A stretch of DNA of 64,000 bases from assembly GCA_019636755.1 (NCBI GenBank), contig JAHBWZ010000001.1, forward strand, positions 558,001 to 622,000, written 5' to 3'. The DNA is from Phycisphaeraceae bacterium (GTDB lineage: Bacteria > Planctomycetota > Phycisphaerae > Phycisphaerales > SM1A02). The notes beneath the pieces were generated by a model. The model ran no database searches, was not told where the DNA came from, and saw only the letters and a program-made list of their open reading frames with translations. Below, one piece after another: positions 13,517 through 20,532 of this stretch (positions are counted from its first letter, which is position 1; the number at the start of each line of letters is the position of its first letter). A program made the position numbers and the translations under genes.

Positions 13517-14965
13517 TCACCCGCTCGCCGCCGGGGCCAGCGCCCGGTAGCACCAGCCGATCTTCCCCTCCACCTCGACGCGGGCCAGCAGGTGCAGCGC
13601 CCACCGGGAGCCGTGGAGATCCGCCACGGAGAGCGGATCGCCGGTGAAGAGATGGCACCGCGCGCGCCCTGCGGGATCGAACGTGAACTCGCGGCAGGCC
13701 AACTGGAGCACCGCGCGATGACTGCGCACCCATGCCTCGACGACCAGCACATCACGCAGGTCATTCGCATCCGCGAGCAGGTGCACGTGACCGCGGGCGT
13801 CGATCGCCAGTTCGACGCGTTCCCGGCCCGGTGACCGGACCGGCAGCGCGGTCAGCCCGGCCACGTAGGTGCTCAGCGGAACCGGTCGCCCGGCGTCGTC
13901 CGGCTCGTGCGGGCGCGCCGGCAGCCGTGCCTCCAGGTCGCCGCGCGCCGCAGGCGGCGCGGCGGCCGGTTCGCGTCCCGGCTGGAACGGCGCGCGGCGG
14001 ACCTGTGCGGCCTCGCCGAGCAGGTCGGCGGTCGTCCGGGCATGGAGGCCGTCGCGGTCCGGGGCGTCCGCGCGGTCCCCCGATCGAACCGGTTCGAGCC
14101 GGCCCGACCCGGTCGGCGTCGGCGTCGGCGTGGGCGTCGGCGTATGAGTCACCCGACCCTCGGCGGGCGGCGCGTGGATCGGGTCGGACGGTGGCGCCAT
14201 CGACGGTCGCGCGGTGGACTCCGGCGGTGCCGGCAGCGGCTCCCCGATCTCGTCCACGTGGAATCGACTGCGCGCAAACTCAATCCACGCAGAGACTTCT
14301 GACACGTCCGGTCGCATCTGGCCGGCGAAACTGCGCAGGCCGGTCGTCCGCCCGCCCGGCTCGATCCGCGGCAGGACGAAGCGGGCCGAGACCGGGAGTC
14401 CCAGCGTGGCATCCACCGTGCGCGCCAGCCGGGCGACCATGTCCGCGGAGGTCGCCTCGTCGCTCCCGATCACGATCACGTCCAGGGCAGGCAGCGGCGC
14501 AGAGATCGCCTCGGCGGATTCGAAGAGGTCCCGGATGATCCGGTACGCGCTCACGAGGGCCACCTCGTCCGCGCCGGAGAGCAGGGTGAGGCGATCGGGC
14601 CGAAGCGCCGCGACATCGGACATCGCCGTGCGCGCGCTCGGGCGAAGGAGCCACGTGCGCACGGTCCGGCCCAGGAACAGGATCGTCTCCCGCAGGTTCC
14701 GGCACGACTCGGCGCGCATCGGATCACTCGTCCCGCCGAAGAGCTGCACCAGCGGATCGTCACCATCCAGCCGGACCAGCGCCGTCAGGCCGCGCTCGCG
14801 CGCGATGCGCTCCGCCACGGGCGCCAGCCAGAGCGCAGCGCGCACCGGCAGGTGGCCCACGAGCAGCAGTTCGAACGTCGGGCCCGAGGGTCGCCGGCGC
14901 TCATCCACCGGCTCCCGCGTGAGAAACATCGACGCCAGTTCCTCGTATGGATCGTGACTGTTCAT
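13517..14965 (-). CDS. Unknown protein translationally coupled to ParA-like ATPase
   Basis: 482 residues, family not recognised. Residues 25-60 (FELLLVGHLPVRAALWLAPV) and the central LPALDVIVIGSDEATSADMVARLAR read like strands and helices of a nucleotide-binding fold, but no Walker A lysine is present. It could be a degenerate NTPase-like domain. Residues about 245-350 are Pro/Ala/Arg-rich linker, including five Thr-Pro repeats. A C-terminal domain of about 110 residues follows. Its ATG overlaps the stop of the ParA-like gene by 4 nt, so the two proteins are likely made together and may be partners, in the manner of ParA with an adaptor. Confidence 0.7.
   Translation of the reverse strand: MNSHDPYEELASMFLTREPVDERRRPSGPTFELLLVGHLPVRAALWLAPVAERIARERGLTALVRLDGDDPLVQLFGGTSDPMRAESCRNLRETILFLGRTVRTWLLRPSARTAMSDVAALRPDRLTLLSGADEVALVSAYRIIRDLFESAEAISAPLPALDVIVIGSDEATSADMVARLARTVDATLGLPVSARFVLPRIEPGGRTTGLRSFAGQMRPDVSEVSAWIEFARSRFHVDEIGEPLPAPPESTARPSMAPPSDPIHAPPAEGRVTHTPTPTPTPTPTGSGRLEPVRSGDRADAPDRDGLHARTTADLLGEAAQVRRAPFQPGREPAAAPPAARGDLEARLPARPHEPDDAGRPVPLSTYVAGLTALPVRSPGRERVELAIDARGHVHLLADANDLRDVLVVEAWVRSHRAVLQLACREFTFDPAGRARCHLFTGDPLSVADLHGSRWALHLLARVEVEGKIGWCYRALAPAASG
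14113..14144. repeat. GGCGTC hexanucleotide repeat within coding sequence
   Basis: About five near-perfect copies of GGCGTC inside the ParA-partner gene. On the minus strand they encode a Thr-Pro repeat in the linker. Whole-hexamer gain or loss would keep the frame and change the linker length. Confidence 0.7.
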
Positions 14966-16632
14966 GACGGCTCCGCCGTGTGATCCGGCACCCGGATGAT
15001 GCTGTTCGCTTCGCCGAACTCGTTCAGGGTCTGCTGCGGATTGTGTGGATCCGGATACCAGCGCCCCTGGTGAACCAGACGATACTCGAACGTCCCCGCG
15101 GGCAGCACGACGCGCGCCGAGACGACGCCCGGCGTGCGCGCGTCCGGCGCGAGTTCGGTGGCGTGCGACGACCAGCCGTTGAACACGCCCGCCACCGCGA
15201 TCGACCCGGACGCTGGCGCGGGCTGGACGAAGAGGACGCCGCCCTCGACGATCCGGACGCCCGGCCGGACGCCCTGCCGGAGACCGAGCGGCCCGGCATC
15301 ACCGAGGTCCCTGGTGGTCTCCTCAGCCGGGTCGGCGACCGGGTTCCCGGTCGCACCTGTCGCGGAGACGTCGGTCCGATCCACGGCCGGGCGTGACACC
15401 GCGGCGCGAGACGCAGGCATGTCCGGCATCACCGGCGTCACCGATGTCACCGGCGCCGCGGGCGCGCTTCCGCCACCGGCGTGCGCCGGAAGCACGGTGT
15501 CGATCGGTGCCGGGGCGTTCCGGCCCGTCGGATCCGCCATCTCGCGCAGGCGACCGGCCAGTTCCGCGGCGCGGCTGGACGTCGGCACCGAGCCTCGCTG
15601 CGGCGTCCGGACGGCGACCGCACCGTGGGGTCCGGGGTCCGGCTCGCCGGCGCCGGGCGCCGCGTGCGCCGGCACCGCGGGCGCTGCGGAGGCACGGGGC
15701 GGGCATGCGCCGTGCATCGCCGCGTCGGGGCGGTCTCCGCGGACCGGGCCCCCGTCGGCGCCCCCGGCCATGGCATCGCCGTCGAACCCACCCGGACCGT
15801 CCGGATCGCGCGGCCCGGCGGCAGGAACGTCACCGCGGACGCGGACCTCGATCAGCGCACCGTCGCGTCCCTCCTCCAGCCAGTCCGCCAGGGCCTCGTG
15901 GTCCTCGCGCGCGGACGAGTCCGGCGCGTACTCCACCACCGACTGCCCCATGCTGGCCGCGCGGCGCAGCGCTTCGTCGCAGCGGATCGCCACCGGGGCC
16001 ACCGCGTCGCCGAATCGGCCGCGGAGAACGCGCAGGACATCGTCCGCCAGCGCTTCACCAGGCCGGTGGAGCGTGGGGACGATCATGCAGCGGATCGGCC
16101 GGCCGATGTGATCCACGACATGCCGGACCGTCTCCCACTGCCGTTCCGCGCCCTTGAGAGAGAAGTACCCGGTCTCCACGGGAATGACCACGTCGCGCGC
16201 GGCCCGCAGCGCGTTGAAGGTCAGCAGGCCGATCGTGGGCGGACAATCGATGACACAGCGGTCGAATCGCCCGGCCAGGCGCGAGAGCATCCGTTCCAGG
16301 CGGCGGTCGCGGTCGGGCAGACCGTGCAGGCCGCCGGCCGGGGCCTCCAGCGCCGCGAGTCGCATGGTGCTGGGCGCCAGCCAGAGATTGCGGCAGACGG
16401 ACCAGACGAGCCGGTCCGCGTCGACGCCCGCGCCCTCGGCGCGGAGCGCGTCGAACATCGACAGTTCGATGCGCTCCTCGGGGACGCCGAGTCCGGCCGC
16501 GCAGTGCGACTGCGGATCCAGATCGACCAGCAGCGTGCGGAGGCCGCGGCGCGCGAACACACCGGCCAGGCTGATGGCCGTCGTCGTCTTCCCGCATCCA
16601 CCCTTCTGGTTGACGATCGCAATCGTTCGCAC
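14962..16632 (-). CDS. ParA/Soj-like ATPase with C-terminal CBM48-like domain
   Basis: 556 residues. The N-terminal ~255 residues are a complete ParA/MinD-type ATPase: deviant Walker A K-G-G-C-G-K-T-T (10-17), A' motif V-D-L-D-P-Q (36-41) and Walker B V-I-D-C-P-P. A Pro/Ala/Gly-rich linker of about 200 residues follows. The last ~90 residues look like an AMPK/isoamylase-type glycogen-binding domain (CBM48), with strands around V-A-G-V-F-N-G-W-S, A-G-T-F-E-Y-R-L-V and D-P-H-N-P. The start is GTG at 16632. There is no ParB gene next to it; the partner is the overlapping unknown gene. It may position or regulate something other than chromosomes. Confidence 0.82.
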   Translation of the reverse strand: MRTIAIVNQKGGCGKTTTAISLAGVFARRGLRTLLVDLDPQSHCAAGLGVPEERIELSMFDALRAEGAGVDADRLVWSVCRNLWLAPSTMRLAALEAPAGGLHGLPDRDRRLERMLSRLAGRFDRCVIDCPPTIGLLTFNALRAARDVVIPVETGYFSLKGAERQWETVRHVVDHIGRPIRCMIVPTLHRPGEALADDVLRVLRGRFGDAVAPVAIRCDEALRRAASMGQSVVEYAPDSSAREDHEALADWLEEGRDGALIEVRVRGDVPAAGPRDPDGPGGFDGDAMAGGADGGPVRGDRPDAAMHGACPPRASAAPAVPAHAAPGAGEPDPGPHGAVAVRTPQRGSVPTSSRAAELAGRLREMADPTGRNAPAPIDTVLPAHAGGGSAPAAPVTSVTPVMPDMPASRAAVSRPAVDRTDVSATGATGNPVADPAEETTRDLGDAGPLGLRQGVRPGVRIVEGGVLFVQPAPASGSIAVAGVFNGWSSHATELAPDARTPGVVSARVVLPAGTFEYRLVHQGRWYPDPHNPQQTLNEFGEANSIIRVPDHTAEPS

Positions 16633-16731: not shown

Positions 16732-18426
16732 TCAGCGCGGCCCGGTCACGGTGTCGTCGTCGACTCCGATCGGGCCGGGACCACCAGGGCGCGCCGGAGC
16801 CGGATCACCGATGTGCAGCAGCGCGATCCGCCCCGGCCACGCAGGCACGGTGGCGAGTACCGGCGACATCCAGAGGATCCGTCCCTCGAGCACCGGGGGT
16901 CCCGGCCACGGCACCGCGTCCGGCCCCGGCGCCCCGGTGAGCAGCGCCATGAATGGTGACGTCATCTCCTGCGGCGACCACCCGACCAGGACCGGTCCCG
17001 GCGATGCGTCATGCCAGTGCCAGCCGGGCGGATCATCGGGCTGCGCCCGCCCGAGGAGCGCCCGGAGCGGCCCCGCGCCCAGGCCGACGAGCCGGACCTC
17101 GGGCCACGCGGCACCCGCCGCCGCGCGAGCCTCGCGCGCGGCGCGCCCGATGGCATCGCCGAATCCCCGCGCCGGTGCCGCGCCGCCGAAGCGGCTGTGG
17201 AGCGCCAGGCCGGTGATCGCGGCGGCCATCGCGGCACTCGTCAGGACGACCACCGCGCGACGGGCGGTGCCTCGGGCGGCGAGGTGCAGACCCCACGTCG
17301 CGAGGACCGCGAGCGGCGTCGCCACGACGGCCAGGTAGTCCGCGCGCTTGCCGGCCGAGAGCGAGAAGAAGACGACCGCGCCCAGGACGAAGAGCGCCGC
17401 GCCCTCGAGGACGCGTCGCTGGTCCGGTCCGCACGCGGCGGCGGGCTCGTCGCGCCGCGCGGCGCCGGGTCGCAACATCCAGATCCCCAGCAGCCCCGGA
17501 ATCGACCACGGCAGGAACCGGACCACCAGGTAGAACGGCATCACGAGGATGCCGGTGACGATGCGCCACGGTCCGCCGCCGCCACCCTCCGGCCCCAGGC
17601 CGGTCACGCGTCCGGCGATCTCGGCATGCAGCAGTTCCTCCCGCACGTGCGCGGGGTCGAGCATGGCGGCGGCGACCACCCAGGCGCCGATGGGTACCAG
17701 CGCCAGCGGCAGGCCGATCGCGAACGAGAGCGGCGCACGGCGCTCGCGGCGTCGCGCGATGACGCATGCCATGGCGCCCGCCCAGAGCGGCAGCAGCAAC
17801 CCGGGTGGTCCCTTCGCAAGCAGCGCGGCGGCGGTCGCCGCCCAGAACTGCAGGCGCCAGCGCGCGATCGACCGGCCCGGCGCGGCGGCGACGCAGGCGG
17901 CACCGCTCATCCAGCCGAGGCCGGTCGCGGCCACCAGGCACATGTCCGGCCGGGCGAGCGCGCTGAGCTTGAAGACCGGGTACGTCGCGAGCATGATCGC
18001 GCCGGCGCACCACCCCGAGCCGGCGGGCAGCGCGGGCAGCAGCCGCGGGATCCACCGGCCCATGGCCACGAGCAGGACGAGCGTCGCCAGCACGCTCGGG
18101 GCGCGGTGGGCGATCTCACAGGCATGCCCCGCCGATGCGACGAACGGCGCCGCGATCCAGTTGTACAGCGGCGGTTTCGTCGCCGGCTTCACGCCCGGCT
18201 CGACGGGAAGGATCCAGCGCCCGTTCTCGACGATGTCCGTCGTGTACGAGATCGTCCGCGGCTGGCTCTGATCCCAGAGATCGCTCGGCTGGGTCAGCCG
18301 GAGCAGCAGCAGCAGCACGACGATTCCGGCCGCCGCGACCCGGAGAGCGCGCGACGGACGTCCGACGCGGTACGGTGAGGTCGGATCGCCCGCGTTCCGG
18401 ACGTCCGTCCCGCCGCCAGGGATCAT
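16732..18426 (-). CDS. GT39 family (ArnT/PMT-like) glycosyltransferase
   Basis: 564-residue integral membrane protein with roughly ten hydrophobic helices. The first extracytoplasmic loop after helix 1 has the family pattern (P-S-D-L-W-D-Q-S, then T-T-D-I-V-E-N-G-R-W and K-P-P-L-Y-N-W), including the acidic residue used in catalysis by ArnT and PMT enzymes. Such enzymes transfer sugars from polyprenyl-phosphate donors to lipids or proteins in the periplasm. The ATG at 18426 overlaps the aroB stop by 4 nt. Donor and acceptor are unknown; lipid A or an envelope glycan is possible given the LPS genes elsewhere in the window. Confidence 0.85.
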   Translation of the reverse strand: MIPGGGTDVRNAGDPTSPYRVGRPSRALRVAAAGIVVLLLLLRLTQPSDLWDQSQPRTISYTTDIVENGRWILPVEPGVKPATKPPLYNWIAAPFVASAGHACEIAHRAPSVLATLVLLVAMGRWIPRLLPALPAGSGWCAGAIMLATYPVFKLSALARPDMCLVAATGLGWMSGAACVAAAPGRSIARWRLQFWAATAAALLAKGPPGLLLPLWAGAMACVIARRRERRAPLSFAIGLPLALVPIGAWVVAAAMLDPAHVREELLHAEIAGRVTGLGPEGGGGGPWRIVTGILVMPFYLVVRFLPWSIPGLLGIWMLRPGAARRDEPAAACGPDQRRVLEGAALFVLGAVVFFSLSAGKRADYLAVVATPLAVLATWGLHLAARGTARRAVVVLTSAAMAAAITGLALHSRFGGAAPARGFGDAIGRAAREARAAAGAAWPEVRLVGLGAGPLRALLGRAQPDDPPGWHWHDASPGPVLVGWSPQEMTSPFMALLTGAPGPDAVPWPGPPVLEGRILWMSPVLATVPAWPGRIALLHIGDPAPARPGGPGPIGVDDDTVTGPR

Positions 18427-19577
18427 CCCGCCGCTCCGACATCCAGCCACGCGCGGCGGATCACCGCGTCCGCGACCGGCACGCCGATCTCGACGCGCCC
18501 GATCGCATGCGGAAGCACCAGGCGGATCACGCCCGCGCGGTTCTTCTTGTCGAACCGCATCGCCTCCGTCAGCGCATCGGCCGGCACCGGCGACGGCAGC
18601 CGTCGCGGCAGGCCGGCCGCGCCCAGCATCTCCGCCAGGCGCGCCGGAAGCGCCTCGGTCGCCGCGCCGGTCTGGACGGCCGCCGATGCGGCGGCCACCA
18701 GGCCGATCGCGACGGCCTCGCCGTGGCGGACCTCGTCATGCAGGATCGACTCGATCGCGTGCCCGAAGGTGTGGCCGAGGTTCAGCACTTCGCGCCGACC
18801 CGCCTCGCGCTCATCGCCGGCGACGATGCCCACCTTGACCCGAGCGAACCCCGCGATGAGCGGCACGAGCGCCGTCCCCGCATCCGGGCGGGCCGATCGG
18901 ATCCACGCCTCGGCCTGGCTGAACAGCGGTTCACCGGCGATGACCGCATGCTTGATGCCCTCGGCAAGGCCCGCGCGGAAGTCCCGATCGTCGAGCGTCC
19001 CCAGGACCATCGGGTCGGCCAGGACCAGCCGAGGCTGCCAGAACGTGCCGGCGAGATTCTTGCCGAGTGCGCCGCGCGACTGATCCGCGGCGCCGGCGGG
19101 CGCGGCGTCGCCCGGAGGCGTCGGCAGCGGCAGATTGACCCCCGTCTTGCCGCCGATGGCCGCGTCGATCATCGCCAGCAGCGTCGTCGGCACCTGGATG
19201 AACGGCATGCCGCGCTGATAGATGGAGGCGGTGAACCCGGCGGTGTCCCCGACGATGCCGCCGCCGACGGCGATCAGCGGCGTCCGCCGATCCGCACCCG
19301 CCAGGAGAAGCTCGTCGAGCAGTCGTGCCACCTCCGCGAGCGACTTGCGTGATTCGCTGGCCTCCATCCGCGCCGCGCACACCCGGCGTCCCGCGCGTTC
19401 GAGCGCGCCGACCGCGCGCGCGCCGGCGCTCGGCGCCACCCGGGCGTCCATGACGACGAACGCGGATGCATGTGGTGCGATCCCGTCCAGGAGCGTGCCG
19501 AGGCGATCGATGCCGTCAGGCTCGATGTGCACGTCGCAGGCGGCGCCGGGAATCGGGACGTTGATCCGCTCGATCAC
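18423..19577 (-). CDS. aroB: 3-dehydroquinate synthase
   Basis: Second enzyme of the shikimate pathway, converting DAHP to 3-dehydroquinate with NAD+ and a divalent metal. Motifs present are G-G-G-I-V-G-D-T-A-G-F, V-P-T-T-L-L-A-M-I-D, I-G-G-K-T-G-V-N, E-G-I-K-H and the metal site N-L-G-H-T-F-G-H-A-I-E. The GTG at 19577 (reads MIERINV) gives 384 residues; the frame further upstream overlaps the next gene. There is an insertion of about 20 residues (TPPGDAAPAGAAD) after the IGGKTGVN motif that most AroB proteins lack. Coupled to the GT39 gene by a 4-nt overlap. Confidence 0.93.
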   Translation of the reverse strand: MIERINVPIPGAACDVHIEPDGIDRLGTLLDGIAPHASAFVVMDARVAPSAGARAVGALERAGRRVCAARMEASESRKSLAEVARLLDELLLAGADRRTPLIAVGGGIVGDTAGFTASIYQRGMPFIQVPTTLLAMIDAAIGGKTGVNLPLPTPPGDAAPAGAADQSRGALGKNLAGTFWQPRLVLADPMVLGTLDDRDFRAGLAEGIKHAVIAGEPLFSQAEAWIRSARPDAGTALVPLIAGFARVKVGIVAGDEREAGRREVLNLGHTFGHAIESILHDEVRHGEAVAIGLVAAASAAVQTGAATEALPARLAEMLGAAGLPRRLPSPVPADALTEAMRFDKKNRAGVIRLVLPHAIGRVEIGVPVADAVIRRAWLDVGAAG

Positions 19578-19584
19578 GGCGGGA

Positions 19585-20532
19585 TTATGGCAGAGCGCGG
19601 TCCCGAAGGACGCGCAGCGCCGCGATCGGATCCTCCGGAAGTGCGTCGGACGCGTCGGTCTCCGCGCCGTCGTCATCCGTCCCGCCTGCGCCGGTCCACG
19701 CGCCACCCGCACCGACCAAGGCCGGCACGCCGCCGCGGGGGCGAAGCGCCCGCGCACCCAGCGCCAGCAGGATGCACGTGCCCGCGAGCAGTGCCAGCGC
19801 GCCGACGAGGACGCCCGGTGCCCCGAATCGTCCGCGGCCCGCGCCGCGGGCGTCCAGGGCGACATGCGCGCGGTGCGTCACGAAGCCGGCATAGCGCCGT
19901 TCGACACCATCCCGTCCCACGCTCCGGAACGACTTGTAGAACCAGGCGGTCGCATCGATCCGGGACCCGGGGCGGAGATCCGGCGCCGCCGGCGCCCCCG
20001 CGCTGTCCACGACGTACAGCGCGATCGGCCGCCGCGCCGCGTCCCGGACGAACCACTCCTCGACATCGGACCACGGTTCGACGAGCCGTGTGCGCTGCTC
20101 GATCCGTCCGCGCACGCGCATCGCGCGGGCCCGGTGCGCGTCCGGTGCGGCGAGCACGGCATCCAGGTCGACGGCGTCGACGACCTCCTGCCGACCCGGC
20201 GTGACATCGGCGCGCCGTGCCGCACCGAGCGCGCGGAGGGCCTCGACAAGCACGGCGAACGCTTCATCCGATCGATCCCGCCCCTCGGACGCCGCATCCA
20301 GCGCGATGCGGTCCTGCGGCGACAGCAGGTCCCCGAGGGCACCGGTCCCGGCGTGTCCGGATGCGCCCGGCGCGGCGGCGGTGAGCGGCGCGGCGCTCTG
20401 GAGCGCGGCCGTGCACACGCAGCACGGAAGCACCCGCACCCACGCGGCGCCTCGCCACGACCATGCGTCCGACGGGCGGCGGACGTGACGGGCCGACCCC
20501 GGACGCAGCCGTTCAGCAGATGCCGATCGCAT
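19585..20532 (-). CDS. Hypothetical membrane-anchored protein
   Basis: 315 residues with a hydrophobic N-terminal segment (probable signal) and a second helix near residues 245-265 (VLVGALALLAGTCILLALGARAL), so it is likely anchored with most of the chain outside the cytoplasm. The middle has an OB-like stretch (VRGRIEQRTRLVEPW, RPIALYVVDSAG, GSRIDATAWFYKSFR). The C-terminus is acidic. It ends 7 nt before the aroB start on the same strand and probably shares its transcript. Family not recognised. Confidence 0.65.
   Translation of the reverse strand: MRSASAERLRPGSARHVRRPSDAWSWRGAAWVRVLPCCVCTAALQSAAPLTAAAPGASGHAGTGALGDLLSPQDRIALDAASEGRDRSDEAFAVLVEALRALGAARRADVTPGRQEVVDAVDLDAVLAAPDAHRARAMRVRGRIEQRTRLVEPWSDVEEWFVRDAARRPIALYVVDSAGAPAAPDLRPGSRIDATAWFYKSFRSVGRDGVERRYAGFVTHRAHVALDARGAGRGRFGAPGVLVGALALLAGTCILLALGARALRPRGGVPALVGAGGAWTGAGGTDDDGAETDASDALPEDPIAALRVLRDRALP

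Follow-up and report, generated by a model that had tools for sequence, protein, structure and literature searches.

ParA-family ATPases position chromosomes, plasmids, carboxysomes and other cargos, and to our knowledge their contact with the cargo lies in a separate adaptor. What would such an ATPase do with a carbohydrate-binding module (CBM) of its own? This question is raised by a gene pair in a 64,000-nucleotide stretch of a Phycisphaeraceae bacterium (contig JAHBWZ010000001.1, positions 558,001 to 622,000; hereafter the window), where the gene for a ParA/Soj-type ATPase joined to an AMPK-type CBM48 domain, here called ParA-CBM, overlaps that of a partner protein. An initial annotation had suggested either the positioning of polysaccharide granules or carbohydrate sensing. 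We found that the pair recurs in many genomes, which makes it more than a chance arrangement, and we tentatively read it as a positioning system whose ATPase would bear its own cargo module. A ligand-binding-type domain with a conserved site thus sits on the ATPase itself, across a class of little-known cell biology, and the CBM points to a candidate type of cargo for the system.

The N-terminal half of ParA-CBM is a ParA/Soj ATPase. A Pfam scan matched residues 1-176 to AAA_31 (E 2.7e-38), and phmmer matched the ATPase to ParA in the PDB (E 3.2e-33). The protein has the deviant Walker A motif KGGxGKT with its signature lysine, together with the Walker aspartates, as is characteristic of the ParA/Soj family, and N8-Q-K-G-G, G14-K-T-T17, D37, D39 and D129 are invariant across the 57 sequences of our alignment A2. 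This bears out the annotation, which had credited this half with all ParA motifs. In the AlphaFold2 model, mean per-residue confidence (pLDDT) was at least 86 in every ten-residue block to residue 250, and VIA-align placed Soj/ParA entries at Z 33-36 with a root-mean-square deviation (rmsd) of about 2 over 241-251 aligned residues. Soj itself (2bej) aligned at Z 33.2, rmsd 2.0 and 242 residues, assigning the ATPase to the Soj fold; the highest-scoring entry, 9a6n_A (Z 36.2), comes from integrative modelling, and the list, which is taken up by ATPase matches, bears on the ATPase fold alone. Of the NCBIfam models listed none reached its cut-off for the ATPase, the best being ParA_partition with 107 of 180 bits. 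In the alignment to PDB ParA, the IPRNVRL stretch of Soj is replaced by IRCDEAL, and arginines lie elsewhere. As the annotation had proposed, a flexible linker of about 200 residues follows: residues 261-452 of the model mostly have pLDDT below 50, consistent with disorder between ATPase and CBM, and the single predicted helix begins within a recurrent RAAELAxR motif of the 57-sequence consensus. The linker is short in deeper lineages.

The C-terminus is of the CBM48 type. It matched AMPK1_CBM (PF16561) over residues 477-550 (29.1 bits; cut-off 26.8), so that the claim of a CBM48-type domain withstood the profile search that could have overturned it; this is the sole PF16561 match in the window's genome. 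The related CBM_48 model (PF02922) stayed under its cut-off in the window's protein (12.6 versus 22.4), a PDB search with the last 112 residues gave AMPK-beta CBM chains (E 2e-4), and the CBM was modelled as a beta domain of high pLDDT. In the AMPK-beta alignment, W487, R518, W525 and N543 fall at the sites that we take to be Trp100, Lys126, Trp133 and Asn150, and we likewise presume the roles of Lys126 and Asn150. According to PMC4339375, Trp100 and Trp133 are key glucan-binding residues of AMPK-beta, and plant PTST requires the two tryptophans that align with them for starch binding. Since alignment A2 omits many degenerate CBMs, which biases its CBM column counts, conservation was counted in a set of 114 distinct CBM sequences: W487 is kept in 109, a basic residue (Arg or Lys) at the R518 site in 108, W525 in 97 and the asparagine in 94, with both glucan-binding tryptophans together in 97. 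In conservation, all four positions rank in the top 18 of the 91 CBM columns. As judged from these sequences, the sugar site of the CBM is constrained.

The annotation had also described the overlapping partner as a nucleotide-binding-like protein without a Walker lysine, with its own Thr-Pro linker and C-terminal domain, and each of these features was recovered. The Pfam scan of the window's proteins found no family in the partner. Its model, built with 60 sequences, shows two domains (about residues 28-240 and 361-478), mostly with pLDDT above 90, separated by a disordered Thr-Pro-rich stretch. The best Foldseek match of the first domain was FlhG (3e-5), and FlhG and FleN rows also topped the VIA-align list (Z 10.2-12.0), followed by signal recognition particle GTPases at no more than 9.3; FlhG 4rz3_A aligned at Z 12.0 and rmsd 3.5 over 161 residues, which identifies a MinD/FlhG fold. 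This list is filled by matches to the N-terminal domain and bears on that domain alone. The partner profile also matched a MinD-type ATPase in the window's own genome (L223 on contig C18, E 1.5e-8) and similar MinD-type proteins in other genomes (L224-L227), whose labelling as FlhG-type presumes motifs as we know them. The partner is thus related to MinD/FlhG-type ATPases. In place of KGGxGKT it carries GHLPVRAALW, which lacks the lysine of a functional P-loop; G37, L39, P40 and W46 are each kept in at least 90% of the 60 partners, and because the P-loop is replaced by a conserved consensus, GHLPVxAGxW, the partner is probably a pseudo-ATPase with its loop put to another use. The C-terminal domain is conserved. 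Its best PDB profile match (E 0.29) and a weak hit of the NCBIfam model for DNA polymerase III psi (E 0.0063) were both taken as chance. Homology of the partner to the ATPase of ParA-CBM was likewise rejected, as profile comparison gave a probability of 0.14 on a scale of 100.

How widely the pair is distributed was assessed at several levels. A species-genome scan returned 80 loci, most of them labelled as Phycisphaerae or as one of its orders or families, some as Planctomycetota only and a few as another group. Copies on contigs labelled Cyanobacteria, Limnohabitans and Singulisphaera (L038, L048, L079) are Phycisphaerae-like and may be misbinned. The partner adjoins ParA in 65 of the 76 untruncated loci, and within the window's family a partner match was present in 89 of 101 genomes. 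The ParA-CBM profile matched somewhere in all 198 genomes of the class, at orthologue level in 144 (best E at most 1.4e-88, a count made on profile E and not on the presence of a CBM in each) and as a general ParA only in the remaining 54 (best E at least 1.9e-75). The CBM is carried by 114 of the 133 distinct ParA sequences of the group. On this sequence evidence, the system is conserved and widespread in one class of Planctomycetota. Among 137 genomes searched outside the class, 11 were read, selected by score or for having a long open frame, and G357 alone had a CBM: its ParA-CBM (L212) scored 48 bits with PF16561 and 42.6, above cut-off, with PF02922. Eleven bases on, the next gene encodes a 328-residue protein that begins with MMKRKKLGRGIEDFIGAF, which we take to be a ParA-binding peptide of the ParB type. 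By eye it continues as a degenerate MinD-like domain, and it matched no family in Pfam or NCBIfam. The CBM-bearing C-terminus had no match on plasmids. Two other Planctomycetota genomes (G340, G375) encode ParA ATPases that end in a Rieske [2Fe-2S] domain (L200:845-2431, L201:872-2401; PF00355 above cut-off), so another ligand domain has been joined to ParA within the phylum.

We then asked how the partner might contact the ATPase. Residues L10 and F14 of its N-terminal peptide are kept in at least 90% of the 60 partners. Where the window's partner reads PYEELASMFLT, that of L136 has GRGISSIAHHFLS (containing GRGISS) and that of L215 has DRGIDSIAHLFLS; the second protein of L212 carries the ParB-type KKLGRGIEDFIG (LGRGI) at its N-terminus. 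A ParB motif score built from 14 ParB N-termini was applied with 500 shuffles to 80 partner rows, in which some genes appear twice (L001 and L082 are both the window's own). It topped all shuffles in two rows, L136 and L212, and was borderline in L215 (0.062) and in L061 (0.06), where the hit falls on residue 38 of the stretch and off the N-terminal site. A ParB-like peptide in all partners was therefore dropped, since just these two rows topped all shuffles; retaining the positional equivalence, we infer that the partner's N-terminal peptide may be a ParB-like peptide that drifted.

Whether the ATPase serves the chromosome itself could be judged from the other partition genes. Besides ParA-CBM, the window's genome encodes a canonical ParA on contig C12 (L163), and on C18 a ParB that contains three ParB domains; ParA-CBM is therefore an extra ParA. 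That parB (L150:1210-2460) is not beside the canonical ParA; by eye, peptidyl-prolyl isomerase-like and histidine-kinase-like open reading frames (ORFs) flank it. All 12 tested genomes with the system hold another strong ParA (E at most 3e-49) and a ParB, which makes a duty other than chromosome partition likely and led us to discard ParA-CBM as the chromosomal ParA; all 4 tested genomes without the system also have both. Pfam found a ParB domain in neither protein of the pair, no ParB with a DNA-binding domain is co-encoded, and the 64 kb window held 0 matches, allowing up to three mismatches, to the 16-mer that we take to be the parS consensus. The annotation's remark that no parB or parS was seen is accordingly correct for the locus and the window and does not extend to the genome, with its ParB on C18.

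The proposal that ParA-CBM is a second chromosome-partition ATPase, using an unlinked ParB and carrying CBM and partner as add-ons, could draw on Soj/ParA being its closest solved relatives, on parB and the other ParA lying on different contigs in the window's genome, and on the ParB-type peptide of the L212 second protein. The separate ParA and ParB found with and without the system speak against it, as does a quick tree of 133 ATPase domains of the group and 11 canonical ParAs (144 in all), where the canonical ParAs form one clade with support 99. We consider it very improbable.

The same tree and the 80 loci were used to follow gain and loss. The CBM state is clustered on the tree, and the rows without a CBM force at least 7 changes, a figure to be read with 4 of the 19 such rows being contig-end artefacts. 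Those short ParAs (L007, L019, L041, L059) stop at a contig end and were not counted as losses, leaving 76 loci. Of these, 37 have an intact CBM and the partner, 11 an intact CBM with the partner undetected, 15 a degenerate CBM with the partner and 13 the partner without a CBM; none lacks both. The partner is thus kept in 28 of 28 loci where the CBM is lost or degenerate, and went undetected only where the CBM is intact. Non-detection here is profile-based and missed L142 and L196, where a partner-like gene follows. No ORF downstream of the 11 partner-negative loci resembled the partner by eye, in L062 and L075 within the mere 721 and 589 downstream bases available. In class families f19, f22 and f23 the CBM was kept in every member read, and the partner profile was weak (E at least 1.1e-8) or gave nothing in 19 of 19 genomes, a search that a strongly diverged partner would escape; two of these weak matches (G149, G251) proved to be MinD/FlhG-type. 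This pattern makes CBM and partner look like two separable links from the ATPase to something.

A link to glycogen was examined through gene co-occurrence. Of 51 genomes, 35 contained glycogen phosphorylase: 16 of the 27 whose CBM is intact, 11 of the 12 whose CBM is degenerate and 8 of the 12 that lack it. A GH57 branching-enzyme domain was present in one of the 51 (that of L058). A GH13 branching-enzyme match occurred in 167 of the 198 class genomes, above cut-off in 26; among the 20 listed of the 31 without it, at least 8 hold a full-length ParA-CBM, the window's own included. GlgA-type matches were found in 176 of 198, many of them weak or split, with a strong one in the window's genome (6.9e-71). 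Co-occurrence with phosphorylase, GH57, GlgA and GH13 showed no positive link, in a search that left out GlgE and trehalose routes. Weak or split matches are common for both GlgA and GlgB and perhaps belong to other enzymes, so this null is no clean refutation. The presence of ParA-CBM without a branching-enzyme match suggests a system independent of the known branched-glycogen pathway, with its sugar site still constrained. In a 2024 Phycisphaerae genome survey (PMC11266412), glycogen is mentioned as a predicted substrate.

On sequences and models we tentatively propose a ParA positioning system whose ATPase would bear its own glycan-binding cargo module, a reading that is quite possible yet falls short of probable. 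ATP-bound ParA dimers would coat the nucleoid, and through the tethered CBM the ATPase would itself take hold of a body or complex that contains alpha-glucan. Acting by way of its N-terminal peptide, the partner would replace ParB or McdB as a regulator or second adaptor; where a lineage has no CBM, the partner alone would connect the ATPase with its cargo, and where it has no partner, the CBM alone would do so. The proposal draws on the Soj fold, the invariant ATP site, the separate ParA and ParB, the CBM above cut-off with its tryptophans kept, the conservation of the partner, the ParB-type peptides of L212 and L136, and the finding that CBM loss and an undetected partner never coincide in 76 loci. 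Several observations weigh against it. No cargo was found for the system. Intact CBMs do not track the phosphorylase (16 of 27 versus 19 of 24 without an intact site), and the window's genome, 99.4% complete, has no GH13 or GH57 (BE_C) branching-enzyme match despite its GlgA. The CBM is lost or decaying in several lineages while ATPase and partner persist, and in L147 and L210, outside the 80-locus scan, the CBM is not intact and no partner was detected. L196 and L142-L145, five deep rows that bear the CBM, lie closer to Soj than to the other ParA-CBMs, on the canonical side of a branch with support 98, so the tree does not establish one origin for the fusion. A ParB-type peptide can be recognised in just 2 of 80 rows, the window's own partner fails the score (0.83), and profile comparison gave no link between partner and ParA-CBM ATPase. 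For the annotation's two suggestions, granule positioning and carbohydrate sensing, the kept tryptophans (97 of 114) speak in favour, and the phosphorylase result, the lack of a branching-enzyme match and the CBM losses speak against; a role in glycogen placement or sensing is thus supported in part. Still more specific is the proposal that this would be the first ParA-driven placement or sharing of an alpha-glucan store between daughters, with the ATPase gripping the polymer and a dead MinD-like protein replacing ParB; we regard it as doubtful.

Two other accounts start from the same domain. If the CBM48 fold served as a protein-protein module, with sugar binding a relic, the system would position a protein cargo or act in division or envelope growth; this fits the decay of the CBM while ATPase and partner persist, the lack of a positive link to glycogen genes, and the recurrent neighbours, aroB in 51 of 80 loci and an mraZ cluster in 19. 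Such a module would not require both tryptophans, the basic residue and the asparagine, all of them among the best-kept columns, and we find it rather unlikely. Were the CBM instead a carbohydrate-sensing switch, a glucan or oligosaccharide bound to it would alter the ATPase cycle and signal carbon status as in AMPK-beta, with nothing positioned. An AMPK-type CBM with its sugar residues kept is what such a switch would need, and the ParA-CBM holders lacking a GH13 match (8 of the 20 listed) could bind linear or small glucans; a 200-residue disordered tether is unlike a tight coupling of sensor and ATPase, though the linker is short in deeper lineages, and Pfam found no output domain of a known family. 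We judge this unlikely.

The features of the locus are collected in Table 1. Where the aroB cluster recurs, its centre is about 1.5 kb upstream of that of ParA. Downstream of the pair are an M19 dipeptidase on the opposite strand and a DUF2752 protein. The gene mraZ is usually the first of the division and cell-wall cluster; the MraZ cluster, identified by its scanned representative (L009:8300-8794), lies about 8 kb downstream of the pair. Elsewhere in the window, an ORF at 197-1531 on the minus strand resembles a serine recombinase by eye.

Table 1. Features of the ParA-CBM locus in window coordinates.
Feature	Position	Strand	Description and evidence
ParA-CBM gene	14962..16632	-	556 aa, GTG start; ORF, AAA_31 and AMPK1_CBM above cut-off, orthologues
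ParA/Soj ATPase domain	15862..16632	-	residues 1-257; VIA-align, phmmer
Linker, disordered	15268..15861	-	residues 258-455; pLDDT <50 over most
Linker helix, predicted	15535..15573	-	residues 354-366; DSSP of model, 57-sequence consensus
AMPK-type CBM48 domain	14986..15267	-	residues 456-549; PF16561, PDB AMPK-beta match, high-pLDDT beta domain
W487	15172..15174	-	aligned to AMPK-beta FNNW-motif Trp (Trp100)
W525	15058..15060	-	aligned to second AMPK-beta glucan-binding Trp (Trp133)
Partner gene	13517..14965	-	482 aa; 4-nt overlap with ParA-CBM; ORF
Partner N-terminal peptide DPYEELASMFLT	14918..14953	-	conserved; candidate ParA-binding peptide
Partner MinD/FlhG-like domain	14246..14884	-	residues 28-240; FlhG fold match, profile match
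Partner dead P-loop GHLPVRAALW	14828..14857	-	residues 37-46; no lysine
Partner C-terminal domain	13532..13885	-	residues 361-478; pLDDT mostly >90; no Pfam family
ORF without Pfam match	16732-18450	-	membrane-protein-like by eye; between aroB and ParA-CBM
aroB	18423-19865		upstream of pair

Among known systems, ParA-CBM shares with Soj/ParA of ParABS the ATPase fold and ATP-site motifs (Z 33-36), and differs in its C-terminal CBM, in having no ParB partner or parS at the locus and in its place outside the canonical clade. The partner resembles FlhG, FleN and MinD in the fold of its N-terminal domain and in a weak sequence match, and differs by its lost P-loop, N-terminal peptide, linker and extra C-terminal domain; a pseudo-ATPase in this position would be a new kind of ParA regulator. 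McdB, which is co-encoded with its ATPase, likewise lacks the DNA-binding domain of ParB, and it is not known to be a pseudo-ATPase. The McdAB system, which positions carboxysomes (PMC13052382), also relies on an ATPase of the ParA family, whereas in ParA-CBM the ATPase itself bears a ligand-binding-type module. That 2025 review of organelle positioning covers carboxysomes, magnetosomes, polyhydroxybutyrate (PHB) and polyphosphate granules, and the word glycogen is absent from its text. Among the matches listed in open-licence papers, no title named a ParA-CBM protein or ParA-driven glycogen positioning. Also comparable are PhaM, PhaF and PhaH (PHB) and AlgP (polyphosphate), each of them, according to PMC13052382, a single protein that connects storage granules with the nucleoid. 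The CBM itself resembles those of AMPK-beta and plant PTST, which share the CBM48 with two glucan-binding tryptophans; the CBM48 of PTST brings a partner protein to starch granules (PMC4339375). ParA-CBM differs from both in being bacterial, in lacking a kinase or a PTST-type coiled coil, and in having its CBM fused to a ParA ATPase.

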